Positions 12,871 to 44,246 of a DNA stretch of 64,000 nucleotides are shown one piece after another. Source of the DNA: Salinarchaeum sp. IM2453 (GTDB lineage Archaea; Halobacteriota; Halobacteria; Halobacteriales; Salinarchaeaceae). Both the position numbers and the translations under genes were made by a program. Numbering within the stretch: position 1 is the first letter of the stretch; each line of letters begins with the position of its first letter. The notes under the pieces were generated by a model. That model was not told the DNA's origin, ran no database searches, and was given only the letters and a program-made list of their open reading frames with translations. The stretch covers positions 1,925,226 through 1,989,225 of the forward strand of contig NZ_CP081183.1 of NCBI RefSeq assembly GCF_019693215.1. The letters run 5' to 3'.

Positions 12871-13243
12871 TTACAGCGGTAGCAAGGCGAAAAACCACCC
12901 GTTAACGAGTATGGATGAAGCCGACAACTAGGAATTGTTTTCTGGGATTGAGCGGGTCCAGCGTTTTATACTCAGTTAGGACGTGAACACGACCAGACAG
13001 AGGCGGCGTTGCCGCCCTGTTAAACGAATAATATCGGGAGTTGGGCAACACCACGTCTGAAGGCATTCACTTCGGGCGCTGACTGTGGATCCCGAACAAA
13101 CACGGTAACACTGAATCCCATGTTAGGATAGGAGTAACAGCAGCTTCACCCCCGCTAAGAGTCTGGTCATGGCGACCAAACCGTAAACCTGAACCTCCCA
13201 ACCAAGTGGTGCGGTGCCGTGGGAATCGGAGGTAGTCAACTAT
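12871..13243 (+). mobile_element. IS200/IS605-type right-end relic (family 2, copy 1)
   Basis: Similar to 47524-47752: both begin TTACAGCGGTA, share GTGGATGAAGCCGACAACT-like and GGTAAC-x-CTGAATCCCATG blocks, and end AACCTCCCAACCAAG then GGTGCCGTGGGAATC. One frame gives PEPPNQVVRCRGN, matching EPPNQALRCRGN in the other copy. This copy has an extra stretch of about 180 bp (12930-13115) that the other lacks. Read as decayed 3' ends of TnpB-type elements. The remainder of 12798-13562 holds no gene except the AT-rich island. Confidence 0.55.
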
Positions 13244-13562: not shown

Positions 13563-14201
13563 GTGTCAGAAGAACCCTGTTGCAAAGTTTCACGAATAGT
13601 TAATAAGTATGATCTATCTCCAGGACGTCAGGAGACAGATATTGATTCATATCTCCGGTCTCGTTGGTTAGGCTCGACTGAGTACCCAGAGACGCCACTT
13701 CGTGATCTAGTTGCTTGGTTTAACCAGTCTATCCTTCGAACGGTATATGCGGAGGCAGGACGAAAAACATTAGAGCCACAGATCGAGACAGAATATAACG
13801 CTCTTACGGGTAACGATGATGACGATCGGCAATTAGTACTTGATGACCTACAGGCAAACGGGATAGACGGGTCACAACTACGTACAGACTTTATTTCTAC
13901 TGCTACACTTCATCGCCATTTAACAACCTGTCTTGAGGTAAAGAAGCCACCAGCAAATACGGATTCAAACTGGGAAGAGAAAAAACTGGATTATACTTTC
14001 CAAATCGTCGAAGAAAATGTACAGGAAATCCTCCAGTCATGGGAGAATAGTGGCGTGATTCCAAACGCCACCGAGACCGAGATTGCAACTCGACTCTATC
14101 TTGAGTGTCCGATCTGTTCTGCACAAGTAGACATTAAAACAGCAAGGCAGAGGGGATACATCTGTAAGCATTTATCTGAACCAGATTCTGACGAACAGTA
14201 G
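13563..14201 (+). CDS. rdfA: Rod-determining factor RdfA family protein
   Basis: A 212-aa haloarchaeal protein recognised by its opening block CCKVSRIVNKYDL, the following DSYLRSRWLG, and LRDLVAWFNQSILRTVYAEA, which are characteristic of RdfA. In Haloferax volcanii RdfA is needed for the rod cell form. A C-terminal CPIC ... GYIC pair (about residues 183-204) could bind zinc. There is no signal peptide or membrane segment, so it is cytoplasmic. It starts with GTG and has its own TATA box. The next gene on the same strand is an archaea-specific SMC-like ATPase, a pairing known in haloarchaea. Identification is from memory of the family, not a database search. Confidence 0.72.
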   Translation: MSEEPCCKVSRIVNKYDLSPGRQETDIDSYLRSRWLGSTEYPETPLRDLVAWFNQSILRTVYAEAGRKTLEPQIETEYNALTGNDDDDRQLVLDDLQANGIDGSQLRTDFISTATLHRHLTTCLEVKKPPANTDSNWEEKKLDYTFQIVEENVQEILQSWENSGVIPNATETEIATRLYLECPICSAQVDIKTARQRGYICKHLSEPDSDEQ

Positions 14202-14299
14202 GGCTGGAAAGTATGTCTGTCAGAAATGTCTTATGTTCTCTTACTGGTCCTCCTGGATGAACAATATGAGCCCATCAAATCCCACAGAAGAAAGGAGGA

Positions 14300-14331
14300 T
14301 ACCACGGGGCTCTTGTCCCGAGGCAGTTGAC
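14300..14331 (+). repeat. Solo right-end-type hairpin
   Basis: ACCACGGGGCTCTTGTCCCG followed by AGGCAGTTGAC. The stem CGGG/CCCG and trailing GCAGTTGAC resemble the terminal hairpin of IS1341/TnpB right ends (compare 61561-61585). No adjoining tnpB is present. Confidence 0.5.
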
Positions 14332-14407
14332 ATGAAAATGTGATCGATCTAATATGGCTATGTTTGTCTAGCTTTGATGCCAGTTATTTGACCACAATAT
14401 GCTCATT

Positions 14408-14462
14408 GTGAACTGCTCCGGGGTCAAGCCCCGAGGCACGCTGCCTGCTATTTCGGTAGACA
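14408..14462 (-). repeat. Solo right-end block with hairpin
   Basis: On the minus strand it reads AAATAGCAGGCAGCGTGCCT, CGGGGCTTGACCCCGG and then AGCAGTTCAC: a strong 5-bp GC stem with a short loop followed by the conserved GCAGTTCAC end. It faces the hairpin at 14300-14331 across 76 bp. The remaining bases of the 336-bp rdfA-SMC gap show only the promoter region of the SMC-like gene. Confidence 0.6.
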
Positions 14463-14537
14463 CTTTGGTTTCAGCGTAGGATGAGTTAAGATATAGCACT
14501 ATTTTCATATGTGTCCTTGCCGTATCATCAATAGGTC

Positions 14538-16379
14538 ATGTGGTCGTTAACTATCAACAACATTGCTGGAATTCAATCTGGGTCAGCAACTATCGACTCA
14601 GGACTCAATGTTGTTCAGGCTTCAAATTTTCGGGGTAAATCAAGCTTTACTGCTGCTGTTCGAGTTGCAATAGGTGCAACTGGATACTATGAGGATCATC
14701 CTCTTACTGAAGGGGAAAATAAAGGAAATGTCAACCTCAGCACCTCGGGTGACCAGTACGATGTGCACATAGAGCGTACTGGCGACACGTGTGTTCGGTC
14801 AGGAAATCCGTATTTATCTACTGAGGAAAATCAGATTGCCGCCAGATTGTTTGCATTTCTTGGAGAAGATAATCCAATTCGATACGCTGTTCGGCATAAT
14901 GAAGACCTTACAGAATTGCTACAGGCACCCTTAGACATTGAGGACATAGACGCCAAAATTAACGAATTGCAAAACAGCCGATCAGAGATACAATCCCAGT
15001 TGTCAGAAGCTAGGATGGCTGCTGATAAGATACCAGAGCTGGAAAAACAACAAACTACTCTGCAGGATGAACTTGAGTCTCTTCGTGATACTCAATCACA
15101 GTTCTCAGCAACGGAAGAAACAAAGCAACGCGCTGAAGATCTCAGTGAAGAGCTAACCGCTAAACAAGAGAAACTCGAAATCACCACGCAACGAATTAAA
15201 CGCCTTGAACAACAAATAGAACGCAAGCAGTCGACTCTCTCAGAAAAAAGAGCAAAACTCACCGAGATCGATATACAAGATAAACCAACATTGTCAACTG
15301 ATCTTGAGACAAAACAAAATAAAATCAATAGCCTTGATCGAAAAATAACATTAGCTGAGGATCTTCACCGTGCAAATCGAAATATCCTTGAGGAAGAGGG
15401 TATCGAAGTTATCGCAGATGTCGAACACACTGTTGTAGATGATGAGATTGAGTGTTGGGTTTGTGGATCAGGAACACTCCGTGATACAATAGAAAACAAA
15501 CTTGACTCGCTACAGAACACTATCGATCAACTCAGAGATCAAAAGTCACAGCTTGAAACTGAAATAAAGCAGTATAAAAACAAAAAAAGAGAGTACGAAG
15601 AAAAACAACGACGGCAAGAACAACTGGAGCGTACGGTTAGCATTTTGAAGGCTGAAATTGATGATCTCCAAGGACAGCTAGACACCGCTCAAGCACAAAA
15701 AAGTGCCTTACAACAAGAGGTTGACAAGTTAAAGAATAAGCTAGAGGCAGTTGAACGTGAATATAATGACAAGCTTGCAACTGTTAAGACCAAAATTCGG
15801 TCCAAGGAACGAAAGTTACAGAGTATCGAAGAAAAACTTTCCAATGCTCGATCGCGCGAGCAAGACATAAATGAACTCCGTAAACAGGAACGAGAAATCA
15901 CAGATACAATTGAGACCCTCCGGAAGCGGAAAACAGAAACTCAATATGAAATTAAACGCCAGTTTGACACAGCAATCAAAGAGATAGTGGATAGGTTTGA
16001 CCCAGGATTTGATGGCGCGCACCTAAACCTTAAGACTGATCCTTCGGGAGAAATCGAATCTATAGAATTACAAATTGCCCGTGATGGACGCGAGACATCT
16101 CTTAACGCCTTAAGCGAAGGTGAAGTAGAGCTCGTTGGGCTGGTTGTTGCATTGGCTGGATACCGGACATACGATGTAAATGAGCATACACCCGTTTTGA
16201 TTGTAGATGGAGTCGGAGAGCTAGCCGCAGAGCATCTCCGAACACTTCTTTCTTACCTTGCTGAAACATCAGAGATAATCATTACTACGGCCTATCCTGA
16301 AGCTGGATCATTTGACGGTAACATTATTAACCCTGCTTCATGGAATGTCGTTTCGGACTCCAAGGCGTCATCTGCATGA
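14538..16379 (+). CDS. Archaea-specific SMC-related ATPase with zinc hook
   Basis: 613 aa with SMC/Rad50 architecture. An N-terminal ATP-binding half carries a Walker A that fits A-x4-GK-S (ASNFRGKS, 28-35). A long coiled coil (about 140-300) leads to a zinc-hook CWVC (306-309), and a second coiled coil (about 315-475) returns to the C-terminal ATPase half with a signature-like LSEGEVELVGLVVAL (525-539). The Walker B strand PVLIVDGVGEL (552-562) has the metal-binding aspartate, but the usual following glutamate is glycine. It probably dimerises through the hook and acts on DNA. It follows rdfA on the same strand with its own upstream region; the pairing suggests a linked role in cell shape or chromosome organisation. 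Confidence 0.82.
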   Translation: MWSLTINNIAGIQSGSATIDSGLNVVQASNFRGKSSFTAAVRVAIGATGYYEDHPLTEGENKGNVNLSTSGDQYDVHIERTGDTCVRSGNPYLSTEENQIAARLFAFLGEDNPIRYAVRHNEDLTELLQAPLDIEDIDAKINELQNSRSEIQSQLSEARMAADKIPELEKQQTTLQDELESLRDTQSQFSATEETKQRAEDLSEELTAKQEKLEITTQRIKRLEQQIERKQSTLSEKRAKLTEIDIQDKPTLSTDLETKQNKINSLDRKITLAEDLHRANRNILEEEGIEVIADVEHTVVDDEIECWVCGSGTLRDTIENKLDSLQNTIDQLRDQKSQLETEIKQYKNKKREYEEKQRRQEQLERTVSILKAEIDDLQGQLDTAQAQKSALQQEVDKLKNKLEAVEREYNDKLATVKTKIRSKERKLQSIEEKLSNARSREQDINELRKQEREITDTIETLRKRKTETQYEIKRQFDTAIKEIVDRFDPGFDGAHLNLKTDPSGEIESIELQIARDGRETSLNALSEGEVELVGLVVALAGYRTYDVNEHTPVLIVDGVGELAAEHLRTLLSYLAETSEIIITTAYPEAGSFDGNIINPASWNVVSDSKASSA

Positions 16380-38692: not shown

Positions 38693-39761
38693 GGCGGTGG
38701 TGCAGAAGTCTTCACAAGGAAAGCGGTAGGACGAAATTGATGTGTCCAGCAGCAAGTCCGTCCTACCGAGTAACGATACGGTCGAACAGGTTTTCAAAGC
38801 ACTGGAGACGGAGACGACAGCGCTGTTCGAACACCTTGATCTCTCCTTTCTCAAGGACCTTCCCGTGTTCGCCCCTGATTCGAGGGGGCGAACACGGGTC
38901 CACGAGCCCCCAGAGTTGCTGAAAGGTGTCCTTCACTGCTTCTACAACGACATCTACGGGCTCCGACCAATGGCGCGAGAACTCCGGAATGAAGATGTGT
39001 GGCGGCAATGTGGATTCGAGCGCCCACCGTCCCGGTGGACGCTCTCACGGTTTATCACTGATTTCGCTCTCGTCGCAGAAGACATCTTCATCAAATTGGT
39101 GCATGAGCTTGCCGAGCAGGTCCCGTTCGGCAAGCTCTTCCGCATCGATGGTACCGACATTCCCGTCGATCAGCGTGATGATGACGCTAGCTGGAACTAT
39201 GACCACAGCGAAGACGAGTACTACTACGGTTACGGCTGTTGTGTCGTGACCGCGGCAAACAACATTCCGGTCGCAGCAGCGTTCACTCCAGCAAAGAAAG
39301 TCGATCAGGAGACGGCGATGCGCGTCACGCGTGACGCGCTCGCCGTCGAAATCCCTCGATGGATGGTCGGTGATTCAGAGTTCGATATGCTGGAGTGGCA
39401 CGACTACCTGCTGGCGCAGGCGGTCGTACCGGTTGCACCGTACAATCCACGCAATACGGACGACCCGCTAGAGATTGAGTATCGCGTCGAAGACCAGATC
39501 AAACGGCACAGCGACACAGTTCGTCTCTGGCAGAAACAGCTCGATAAGACGTATGATCAACGCTCACGGGTGGAAACAGCGATTGGTGTCTGCAAGGATC
39601 TCGGCCTCGGGACCTCGCGGGTCCGAGGCCGAGTGAGGGTCAAAGCACACGTTTTTCTGGTTCTGTGTCTTCGGTTGGCCGTTGCGCTCGCTAATCACCA
39701 TCGAGGAAACGATGTCGCCAGCCCCAACATCATGCTATGAGAACCATTCTGCACCACCGCC
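38693..39761 (+). mobile_element. Complete IS5-type insertion sequence
   Basis: 1069 bp. The left end GGCGGTGGTGCAGAA (38693-38707) is the exact complement of the right end at 39747-39761. An exact 8-bp target duplication TACGGGTA lies at 38685-38692 and 39762-39769. The element has visibly higher GC than its flanks and one intact transposase. The 8-bp duplication and length fit the ISH1 group of IS5. It landed just upstream of an IS630 relic. No other gene lies in 38406-38692. Confidence 0.92.
38742..39740 (+). CDS. IS5-type DDE transposase
   Basis: 332 aa, uninterrupted. The candidate DDE triad is D136 in FRIDGTDIPV, D211 in WMVGDSEFD and E278 in QRSRVETAIGVCK, with the Y-x2-R-x3-E-like spacing of IS4/IS5 enzymes. 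The C-terminus SRVRGRVRVKAHVFLVLCLR is typical of halophilic members. The ATG lies 49 bases inside the left inverted repeat. Probably active: ends, frame and target duplication are all intact. Confidence 0.92.
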   Translation: MSSSKSVLPSNDTVEQVFKALETETTALFEHLDLSFLKDLPVFAPDSRGRTRVHEPPELLKGVLHCFYNDIYGLRPMARELRNEDVWRQCGFERPPSRWTLSRFITDFALVAEDIFIKLVHELAEQVPFGKLFRIDGTDIPVDQRDDDASWNYDHSEDEYYYGYGCCVVTAANNIPVAAAFTPAKKVDQETAMRVTRDALAVEIPRWMVGDSEFDMLEWHDYLLAQAVVPVAPYNPRNTDDPLEIEYRVEDQIKRHSDTVRLWQKQLDKTYDQRSRVETAIGVCKDLGLGTSRVRGRVRVKAHVFLVLCLRLAVALANHHRGNDVASPNIML

Positions 39762-42800: not shown

Positions 42801-43080
42801 CAGGCTACGTCCCTGTCCTCAAGGAGAAGCGCAGTGAACCGTAATGAACGAGTAGCGCAGTAGTTCGGGGATACAGCCGTCGCTTAGCCTACGTGAAATC
42901 ATCCAATTTAGGTGCGGTCGAACAACAAACTGTGACGGATTCTACTCATGAGGATGGCTTCGAACGGGATCATAACCGTAGTCAGACTCGATTTGTTCGT
43001 CACCAGCAAGTAGGGCAGGGCATGGCCGAATTAACGCCTGCAGAGACCGCGCTCCCTGTGGACACTGTGGTAGTTCACTC
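42801..43080 (+). mobile_element. TnpB-derived mini-element relic (copy B)
   Basis: Left-end block CAGGCTACGTCCCTGTCCTC then AAGGAG at 42801-42826 and GGGGATACAGCCG near 42870, then a spacer with TGTGACGGATTCTACTCATG, then a TnpB C-terminal frame with GFERDHNRSQ and VGQGMAELTPAETALPVDTV (about 42955-43070). The body of tnpB is absent. The right end is lost, and the stop region of the convergent bactofilin-like gene lies in this tail. It fills the gap 42683-43074. Confidence 0.7.
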
Positions 43081-44142
43081 TACAGATGCACCCTCTGAAC
43101 TTGGCCCAGGAGTGAGACTCATCCGACGTCGTCGTGTAATAAGCCTGAGGACAAGTGCCCCAAGGCCCAGAAGAGTAATAATAAAGTTAACCAGCCCTCC
43201 GATCACTGGTATTTGCCAGAGAATAGCCGCGAGCAGAAGCCCAGCGAGGAGTGCTGCCCATCGGTTATTCACATCAGCTAAGGATAGAAGCCAATCTCCG
43301 ATAGCGAATCGACCGTAGATTGTTCCAATCCAGATGGTTAACAGAAATACGAACAACCCGGCAATCGAGATTGGAATACCGATAACGGTTAGTGCAACTA
43401 TGATGAGAATAATCGGGGCTCCAATCAATATGCCGAGTCCAGTCAGACCACTTCTGATAGGATCGGTTTCAACACGGTCAGACACACGATCCGAGAACTT
43501 CGGGAATAATCCGAGTAATAACGCTCCGAGAAAAAAGTTCAATATAAAACCACCAATGGCAAACACCCATGTGCTAACCGGTTGGAAATCGCCGAAGAAC
43601 ATGGGAGCAATTGACCGGTCTCTTGTGATATCACCTTGGACAGCATCAAGATTTCCGCTGAGTTCTCCATCGTATGTCAGCGAACCATTAATGATTGCTG
43701 TATCACCAAGTTGAATTGTTGCAGCGCCAATCCGAGCATCACCCTGTATGGCTCCATCAATTTGTACACTGCCTGCCCCAACGTTAAAGTCTCCTTCAAC
43801 AACTCCTGTTTCAGTAACTCGGACCGAACCAGCACCAGATGATACATCACCACGGACAGTCCCTGCTATATCAATGCTCCCGGCAAAAGCTTCGATATTC
43901 CCTTCGACTACACCGTTTTCTCGGACAACAATATCACCAGCGAATCCGGAGATATCCCCTGTTACTGTTCCTTCGACAATAATCGTCCCGAACACGCCCT
44001 CGACACTTGAGACGTTTTCTCCACTCTCCACCGTTACCTTGTCGCCAAAACCTGACTGTGCTGATACAACTCCTGGAAATAACCCCACTACGAGCAGTGT
44101 ACTGATAACAAAAACAAATATATGACGTTGTGATGCTGACAT
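43075..44142 (-). CDS. Bactofilin-like exported membrane protein
   Basis: 355 aa from the ATG at 44142 (an upstream TTG is unlikely). A signal peptide (about 1-28, FVFVISTLLVVGLFPGVVSA) is followed by a right-handed beta-helix of roughly 16-19-residue repeats (VEGTVTGDISGFAGDIVV, ENGVVEGNIEAFAGSI) typical of polymer-forming bactofilin-type proteins, and then four C-terminal membrane helices (about 205-335). The helix would lie outside the cell. The last residues (GPSSEGASVE) lie in the tail of a TnpB relic, so the original C-terminus may have been replaced. It may act in envelope structure; the function is not established. Confidence 0.8.
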   Translation of the reverse strand: MSASQRHIFVFVISTLLVVGLFPGVVSAQSGFGDKVTVESGENVSSVEGVFGTIIVEGTVTGDISGFAGDIVVRENGVVEGNIEAFAGSIDIAGTVRGDVSSGAGSVRVTETGVVEGDFNVGAGSVQIDGAIQGDARIGAATIQLGDTAIINGSLTYDGELSGNLDAVQGDITRDRSIAPMFFGDFQPVSTWVFAIGGFILNFFLGALLLGLFPKFSDRVSDRVETDPIRSGLTGLGILIGAPIILIIVALTVIGIPISIAGLFVFLLTIWIGTIYGRFAIGDWLLSLADVNNRWAALLAGLLLAAILWQIPVIGGLVNFIITLLGLGALVLRLITRRRRMSLTPGPSSEGASVE

Positions 44143-44246
44143 GTGTAACAAGTTAACATATAAAGATATAAATTTTCGGAACCCCCGCAACAATACTCGC
44201 AAATACTACTGAAAATCAGAACAGCAAACAGGGAACATCAGTCTCC

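Follow-up and report, generated by a model that had tools for sequence, protein, structure and literature searches.

The window analysed here, a stretch of 64,000 nucleotides from Salinarchaeum sp. IM2453, contains a gene for an RdfA-family protein followed by a gene for an ASRP, the family that encloses Sph and coalescin and carries a zinc hook (Yoshinaga et al., 2022; PMC9389158). The original prediction had read the locus as rdfA and then a zinc-hook ASRP gene on the same strand, and the two ORFs lie exactly where it had placed them (Table 1), with rdfA upstream and a spacer of 336 nt. Both family assignments hold: the RdfA profile PF21811 matches residues 7–200 of the first protein (E = 1.4e-32, 113.5 bits compared with a cut-off of 27), and the NCBIfam ASRP profile NF045487 matches the second along profile positions 1–593 of 593 (433.8 bits compared with a cut-off of 300), with the hook cysteines in place at residues 306–309. 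The nearest named relatives of the window RdfA include the product of an rdfA near an Sph1-type ASRP gene in Halorubrum sp. CBA1229 (47% identity) and that of the rdfA adjoining sph1 in Halobacterium (38%).

Table 1. Features of the rdfA–ASRP locus, in window positions.
Feature	Position	Strand	Remarks
Decayed dispersed non-coding MITE-like element of ~357 nt, IS200/IS605-like ends	12871..13227	+	Upstream of rdfA
rdfA, RdfA-family protein, 212 aa	13563..14201	+	GTG start; Pfam PF21811
RdfA C-terminal zinc-knuckle-like motif C182-x2-C185-x15-C201-K-H203	14106..14171	+	
Dispersed palindromic repeat of ~53 nt	14408..14460		rdfA–ASRP spacer
ASRP/Sph gene, Sph1 clade; SMC-like head, coiled coil, zinc hook, 613 aa	14538..16379	+	ATG start
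Walker A ASNFRGKSS, GKS retained	14619..14645	+	Alignment of 159 ASRPs
Zinc hook CWVC (C306, C309)	15453..15464	+	ASRP alignment
ABC signature LSEGE	16110..16124	+	ASRP alignment
Walker B PVLIVDG, catalytic Glu position = Gly558	16191..16211	+	ASRP alignment

The neighbouring genes are metabolic and code for a sugar nucleotidyltransferase, a methylthioribose-1-phosphate isomerase-like protein, an acyl-CoA synthetase, an Fe–S oxidoreductase and a 3-hydroxyacyl-CoA dehydrogenase-like protein. The AT-rich island described in the original prediction is real but mild: the GC content of the region is 0.40–0.44, compared with a mean of 0.465 ± 0.024 for the genes of the window, the upstream spacer being the most AT-rich part. 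The codon-usage scores of rdfA and the ASRP gene (−1.095 and −1.097, respectively) are typical of the window or better (mean −1.134 ± 0.048), and the GC3 of both genes is within 1 s.d. of the window; the lower GC content of the ASRP gene plausibly stems from its Lys/Glu/Asn-rich coiled coil. The mobile relics that had been noticed at the locus are indeed present. The ~357 nt element has about a dozen near-full copies and about 50 matches in total in the genome (68–80% identity, with shared end points); the better copies follow a TTAC and close with a hairpin and GGTCAA, ends that appear to resemble those of IS200/IS605. The ~53 nt repeat has about 40 matches (74–97% identity). Copies of both elements are found genome-wide and do not bracket the pair. 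An Rfam search around the pair gave no match, and no homologue of ddfA, from the Haloferax rdfA–sph3–ddfA locus, was found in the window. The suggestion of a Haloquadratum-like host does not stand on the single protein compared: one enzyme of the window has partial matches of at most 44% identity in three Haloquadratum assemblies, compared with full-length matches of 54–58% in five other haloarchaea.

The genome (2.66 Mb, one contig) carries three RdfA and three ASRP genes above the curated cut-offs, and every ASRP gene is immediately preceded by an rdfA in the same orientation. With so few genes in a genome of this size, and every ASRP gene paired, chance adjacency is excluded. Two of the pairs are Sph1-type (that of the window and one at 1.18 Mb) and the third is Sph2–4-type (2.27 Mb).

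The predicted structure of RdfA is confident (pLDDT 91, pTM 0.77) and all-helical; rows from plasmid records were left out of its alignment. Eight helices extend to residue 162, the last of them long (137–162), and are followed by a small Cys-rich end. Of 135 paired RdfA proteins, 127 keep the three cysteines of the motif found there (C182, C185 and C201), its fourth position varies, and the motif may bind zinc. Foldseek at E ≤ 0.001 returned no match to the model in the PDB and none among viral models, a profile search of the PDB sequences gave no convincing match, and Pfam and NCBIfam matched nothing other than RdfA itself. These profile, PDB-sequence and fold searches revealed no likeness to a kleisin, a KITE, a nuclease or an HTH protein, so there is no evidence that RdfA is a kleisin, KITE or HTH protein. 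A search of phages for RdfA found none. A weak RdfA match in one genome was rejected, the protein being SurA-like.

The ASRP model is less certain (pLDDT 85, pTM 0.56). Its fold best matches Rad50 (PDB entry 7zr1, E = 3.8e-15), followed by the heads of MukB, Smc5/6, cohesin, Lamassu and Wadjet; the low global TM-scores of these matches are probably due to the flexible coiled coil of the model. The hook lies between helices 134–285 and 315–486, i.e. in the middle of the coiled coil, and its cysteines are almost invariant (the first in 159/159 and the second in 157/159 of the aligned ASRPs). The N-terminal Walker A motif keeps GKSS, with its first glycine replaced by alanine, and the C-terminal Walker B motif keeps its aspartate, with glycine in the position of the catalytic glutamate. 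The term 'ATPase' used in the original prediction is therefore doubtful, even though the P-loop is retained. Although its predicted fold matches the heads of Rad50 (of Rad50–Mre11) and of the SMC–kleisin–KITE complexes, Sph is about half as large and has lost the hydrolysis residues; moreover, no kleisin or KITE partner is encoded beside the window Sph, and RdfA resembles neither. The Lamassu and Wadjet SMC defence systems gave only weak LmuB/JetC matches, mostly on the coiled coil, and none for RdfA.

The original prediction regarded the role of the ASRP partner as undefined, which is no longer the case. In Haloferax, rdfA (HVO_2174) and the adjoining SMC-like gene sph3 (HVO_2175) are both needed for rods and for motility, and their synteny was reported in the same work: among the 54 RdfA and 50 SMC-like genes of 24 genomes, 42 of each are directly adjacent (Schiller et al., 2024; PMC10869688). 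The requirement of RdfA for rods has been published for HVO_2174 only, and the loss of rdfA alters the abundance of many proteins in Haloferax (PMC10869688). Few determinants of archaeal cell shape are known, and the module is among them. A 2024 gene-conversion study distinguished two Sph subgroups, Sph1 and Sph2–4, and showed that the four Haloferax sph deletions all lower survival in an intermolecular gene-conversion assay; Δsph3 cannot form rods, whereas Δsph2 remains rod-shaped and Δsph1 and Δsph4 have a wild-type shape (PMC11276520). For ASRPs as a whole, no common gene neighbourhood has been reported (PMC9389158). The pairing of rdfA with sph has been known since 2024, and the window pair is a new, divergent member of this published kind.

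To which subgroup it belongs was read from a tree of 159 ASRPs in which six non-haloarchaeal members served as the outgroup. The window ASRP falls into a clade of 20 (support 1.0), apart from the other haloarchaeal proteins and together with Halobacterium Sph1 (represented by sequence L210 after the removal of identical sequences), which is its nearest named relative at 43% identity and whose gene likewise follows an rdfA. The sister clade (support 0.999) consists of the other 133 haloarchaeal ASRPs; we take it to be Sph2–4 from the published tree and by exclusion. The ASRPs of loci with the Haloferax rdfA–sph3–ddfA order, recognised by their downstream HalOD1 gene (PF18545, E = 9e-17), fall into this sister clade. 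Judged by its sequences, the window pair is thus an Sph1-type member of the haloarchaeal RdfA–Sph system.

Among the closest known counterparts is the rdfA–sph1 pair of Halobacterium salinarum (VNG_RS11645/VNG_RS11650, on pNRC200), which shares with the window the gene order, the common strand, the short spacer and the clade of both proteins, and whose Sph1 has the same Walker A GKS, Walker B D-G and zinc hook. Yet the proteins are only 43% (Sph1) and 38% (RdfA) identical, and their settings differ: the Halobacterium pair is carried by a megaplasmid and followed by an integrase gene, whereas that of the window lies on the main contig, flanked by metabolic genes. The Haloferax rdfA–sph3–ddfA locus (HVO_2174–2176) also combines RdfA and an ASRP on the same strand and in the same order, but differs in its Sph2–4 clade, its eroded P-loop (GRNATNRTS), its Walker B DS and its downstream ddfA/HalOD1 gene. 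The coalescin/ClsN and Sph proteins share with the window ASRP an NCBIfam ASRP score above the cut-off, the zinc hook, the coiled coil and Rad50-like heads; on the coalescin side, however, the Sulfolobus control genome has no RdfA match, and among the controls a match was found in Haloferax volcanii only.

We then considered how constant the association is. Across 116 Halobacteria genomes, among the matches listed, 97 have both families, two have RdfA only, none has an ASRP only and 17 have neither (Fisher p = 1.7e-18, related genomes not being independent). The RdfA–ASRP module is therefore present in about five of six of the sampled genomes, and ASRPs are co-inherited with RdfA without exception in this sample. 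At the level of loci, and again among the matches listed, an RdfA gene is found within 3 kb in 123 of 141 haloarchaeal ASRP loci and within 500 bp in 121. Adjacency is not absolute: 18 of the 141 ASRP genes lack an RdfA neighbour within 3 kb, and neither these loci nor at least ten orphan RdfA loci showed remnants of a partner. In the Sph1 clade, RdfA lies within 2.5 kb in 20/20 cases, some of them from plasmid records that were retrieved by sequence similarity. Megaplasmids carry many of the pairs, and one pair is found outside the Halobacteria, on plasmid NC_014254 of the methanogen Methanohalobium evestigatum, where the NCBI annotation already names both proteins.

The arrangement of the pairs varies. 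With gene order judged by midpoints (overlapping genes occur), the 123 pairs comprise 71 with rdfA before the ASRP gene, 22 convergent, 19 with the ASRP gene first and 11 divergent, and by parsimony the orientation has changed about 16 times. That the genes stay neighbours while their order and strand are reshuffled argues for a partnership between the proteins and not only for a shared promoter. Indeed, the RdfA and ASRP trees mirror each other (Mantel r = 0.91 for 134 pairs, 0.96 within the Sph1 clade and 0.82 within Sph2–4), an agreement of which species descent explains part and could account for most, and the RdfAs paired with Sph1-clade ASRPs form a clade of their own (20/20, support 0.98). 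Adjacency that survives reorientation, together with matching trees, gives strong grounds to seek a physical RdfA–Sph complex. The surroundings of the pairs yielded no third gene that is conserved, only IclR-type regulators, metabolic genes common on these plasmids and spurious antisense ORFs.

ASRPs are said to carry Walker A and B motifs (PMC9389158); the functional papers searched make no mention of these motifs, and in the literature read we found no discussion of a loss of ATPase residues. Nearly all haloarchaeal ASRPs, including the rod-determining Sph3, have lost residues that are key to ATP hydrolysis. The catalytic Walker B glutamate is present in only one of 153. It is absent from all 133 Sph2–4 proteins (Ser in 125, Ala in 8), and in the Sph1 clade its position is occupied by Glu in 1/20, Gly in 14, Arg in 4 and Gln in 1. 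The P-loop Gly-Lys, kept in 20/20 of the Sph1 clade, is mostly Asn-Arg in Sph2–4 (Asn in 128/133, Arg in 123/133, Lys in 10/133); the Haloferax rdfA–sph3–ddfA loci carry GRNATNRTS and DS[VL]EAID. The six non-haloarchaeal ASRPs keep Gly-Lys in 6/6 and the Walker B glutamate in 3/6, and that of M. evestigatum retains both GKT and DE. Going by these sequences, the simplest history would be that the Gly-Lys P-loop was lost once, in the ancestor of Sph2–4. The GxNATNRTS that has taken its place is strongly conserved in its own right and so does not reflect random decay. A protein without the Walker B glutamate need not have lost hydrolysis; in Sph2–4 a near-invariant glutamate two positions further on (131/133) may conceivably stand in for it. 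The glycine of the ABC signature is kept in 20/20 of the Sph1 clade and is serine in 133/133 Sph2–4 proteins; since the outgroup also has serine here, this change is not special to Sph2–4.

How might such a pair work? We give about even chances to a dedicated two-protein scaffold of RdfA and Sph, derived from SMC proteins and hydrolysing ATP weakly or not at all. Two Sph molecules would join through the zinc hook and the Rad50-like heads, and RdfA would be a dedicated subunit of this dimer, binding at the heads or neck and standing in for the kleisin and KITE of ordinary SMC complexes. The Sph1-type head probably binds ATP, whereas hydrolysis by the window protein would be slow or absent because its Walker B glutamate is replaced by glycine. 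Instead of working as a loop-extruding motor, an Sph1-type complex may then form a long-lived clamp or scaffold, either on DNA or between it and the cell periphery. In Sph2–4, Sph3 included, scaffolding would be largely independent of ATP, since the P-loop itself is eroded. In that case a zinc-hooked SMC scaffold that does not hydrolyse ATP would underlie the shape of haloarchaeal cells, an idea that we hold only tentatively and regard as rather improbable as it stands. The ten Sph2–4 members that keep the P-loop lysine count against ATP-independent scaffolding.

The original prediction had also seen in the pair a candidate cell-shape/chromosome module. It is a genuine functional module, while its role in shape is an analogy from Haloferax, where the sph1 deletion leaves shape unchanged (PMC11276520). 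In the strict form of this proposal, the window pair drives rods in its host as rdfA–sph3 does in Haloferax, where both genes are required (PMC10869688); in addition, Haloferax cells that overexpress Halobacterium Sph1 (Hp71) become rods or show an altered morphology (PMC10869688; PMC9389158). We nevertheless find it unlikely, in view of the Δsph1 phenotype, the position of the window pair in the Sph1 clade, apart from Sph2–4, and the separate pair at 2.27 Mb, which is a better candidate for rods. A DNA-maintenance module, in which an SMC-like complex would serve homologous recombination, gene conversion or the maintenance of replicon copies and would affect shape only secondarily, deserves serious consideration while falling short of even odds in our judgement. 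It would fit the lowered survival of all four sph deletions in the gene-conversion assay (PMC11276520), the cell-cycle regulation of Halobacterium sph1 (PMC1906763), the frequency of pairs on megaplasmids and a fold closest to Rad50, but the catalytic residues are eroded, and neither a linked nuclease or Mre11-like gene nor a conserved third gene accompanies the pair. For the window pair, an output in DNA maintenance is at least as likely as one in shape by analogy with Haloferax Δsph1, which combines normal shape with poorer gene-conversion survival (PMC11276520).

Two further readings concern RdfA itself and the origin of the pair. That RdfA regulates the neighbouring sph gene, and others, instead of being a subunit of a complex would agree with its zinc-knuckle-like Cys motif and with the many proteins that change in abundance on loss of rdfA (PMC10869688). 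We consider this quite improbable, as no HTH or DNA-binding match emerged from the profile, PDB-sequence or fold searches, and as adjacency maintained under freely changing orientation is ill-suited to simple cis regulation. The import of the pair as a recent mobile cassette, as first proposed, is very improbable: insertion-element relics do lie upstream of and between the two genes, and related pairs are common on plasmids, but codon usage is native, GC3 is ordinary, the flanking genes are metabolic, none of the genome-wide element copies brackets the pair and the best relatives are only 40–47% identical.

As the gene pairing itself is not new, what is added here are the co-inheritance counts, the erosion of residues and an RdfA fold without a PDB match. 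The RdfA fold is worth following up, as is the erosion of the ATPase residues across the family, which is the less expected result and predicts that Sph3 works without ATP turnover. The plasmid copy of Methanohalobium, with its ATPase residues intact, offers a natural comparison of the ancestral type, and the genome of the window itself carries three pairs of two classes.

The rdfA-asrp pair of the window is not alone in its genome: two more pairs are found, one of Sph1 type and one of Sph2-4 type, both with rdfA first and asrp on the same strand. L045 lies at 1.18 Mb and L044 at 2.27 Mb. Outside Halobacteria, an ASRP encoded at locus L204 on a Methanohalobium evestigatum plasmid (NC_014254) has intact GKT and DE motifs and is directly followed by a divergent RdfA (36 bits, against a cut-off of 27). 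This ASRP-RdfA arrangement is a candidate for an ancestral-type pair.

For Sph3, the published accounts are in opposition. Deletion of sph3 was reported in 2024 to give disks only (PMC10869688), a result confirmed in PMC11276520, whereas the 2026 CsmR paper states that Sph3 promotes plate morphology and that its deletion yields exclusively rods (PMC13286277).

Repeats and other features of the window
Feature	Position	Strand	Details
Dispersed non-coding element, ~357 nt	12871-13227		further copies in the genome, including loci L307-L319
Palindromic dispersed repeat, ~53 nt	14408-14460		core GGGGTCAAGCCCCGAGGCA
DDE transposase	38742-39740		PF01609
Protein with bactofilin (polymer-forming cytoskeletal) domains	43075-44202	-	PF04519

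The dispersed non-coding element is MITE-like, with about 12 near-full copies and about 50 matches overall in the 2.66 Mb genome, at 68-80% identity. TTAC precedes the start of the better copies, and a hairpin and GGTCAA lie at their end; the element probably originates from IS200/IS605. An Rfam search around the window copy gave no match. The palindromic repeat, one copy of which lies in the rdfA-asrp spacer, occurs at about 40 sites in the same genome. The DDE transposase gene, 22 kb from the pair, has a GC content of 0.566 and a GC3 of 0.656, compared with means of 0.465 and 0.391 for the genes of the window, and is likely to be a recent arrival. Finally, it should be noted that the window also carries the bactofilin-domain gene, about 27 kb from the RdfA-Sph pair.
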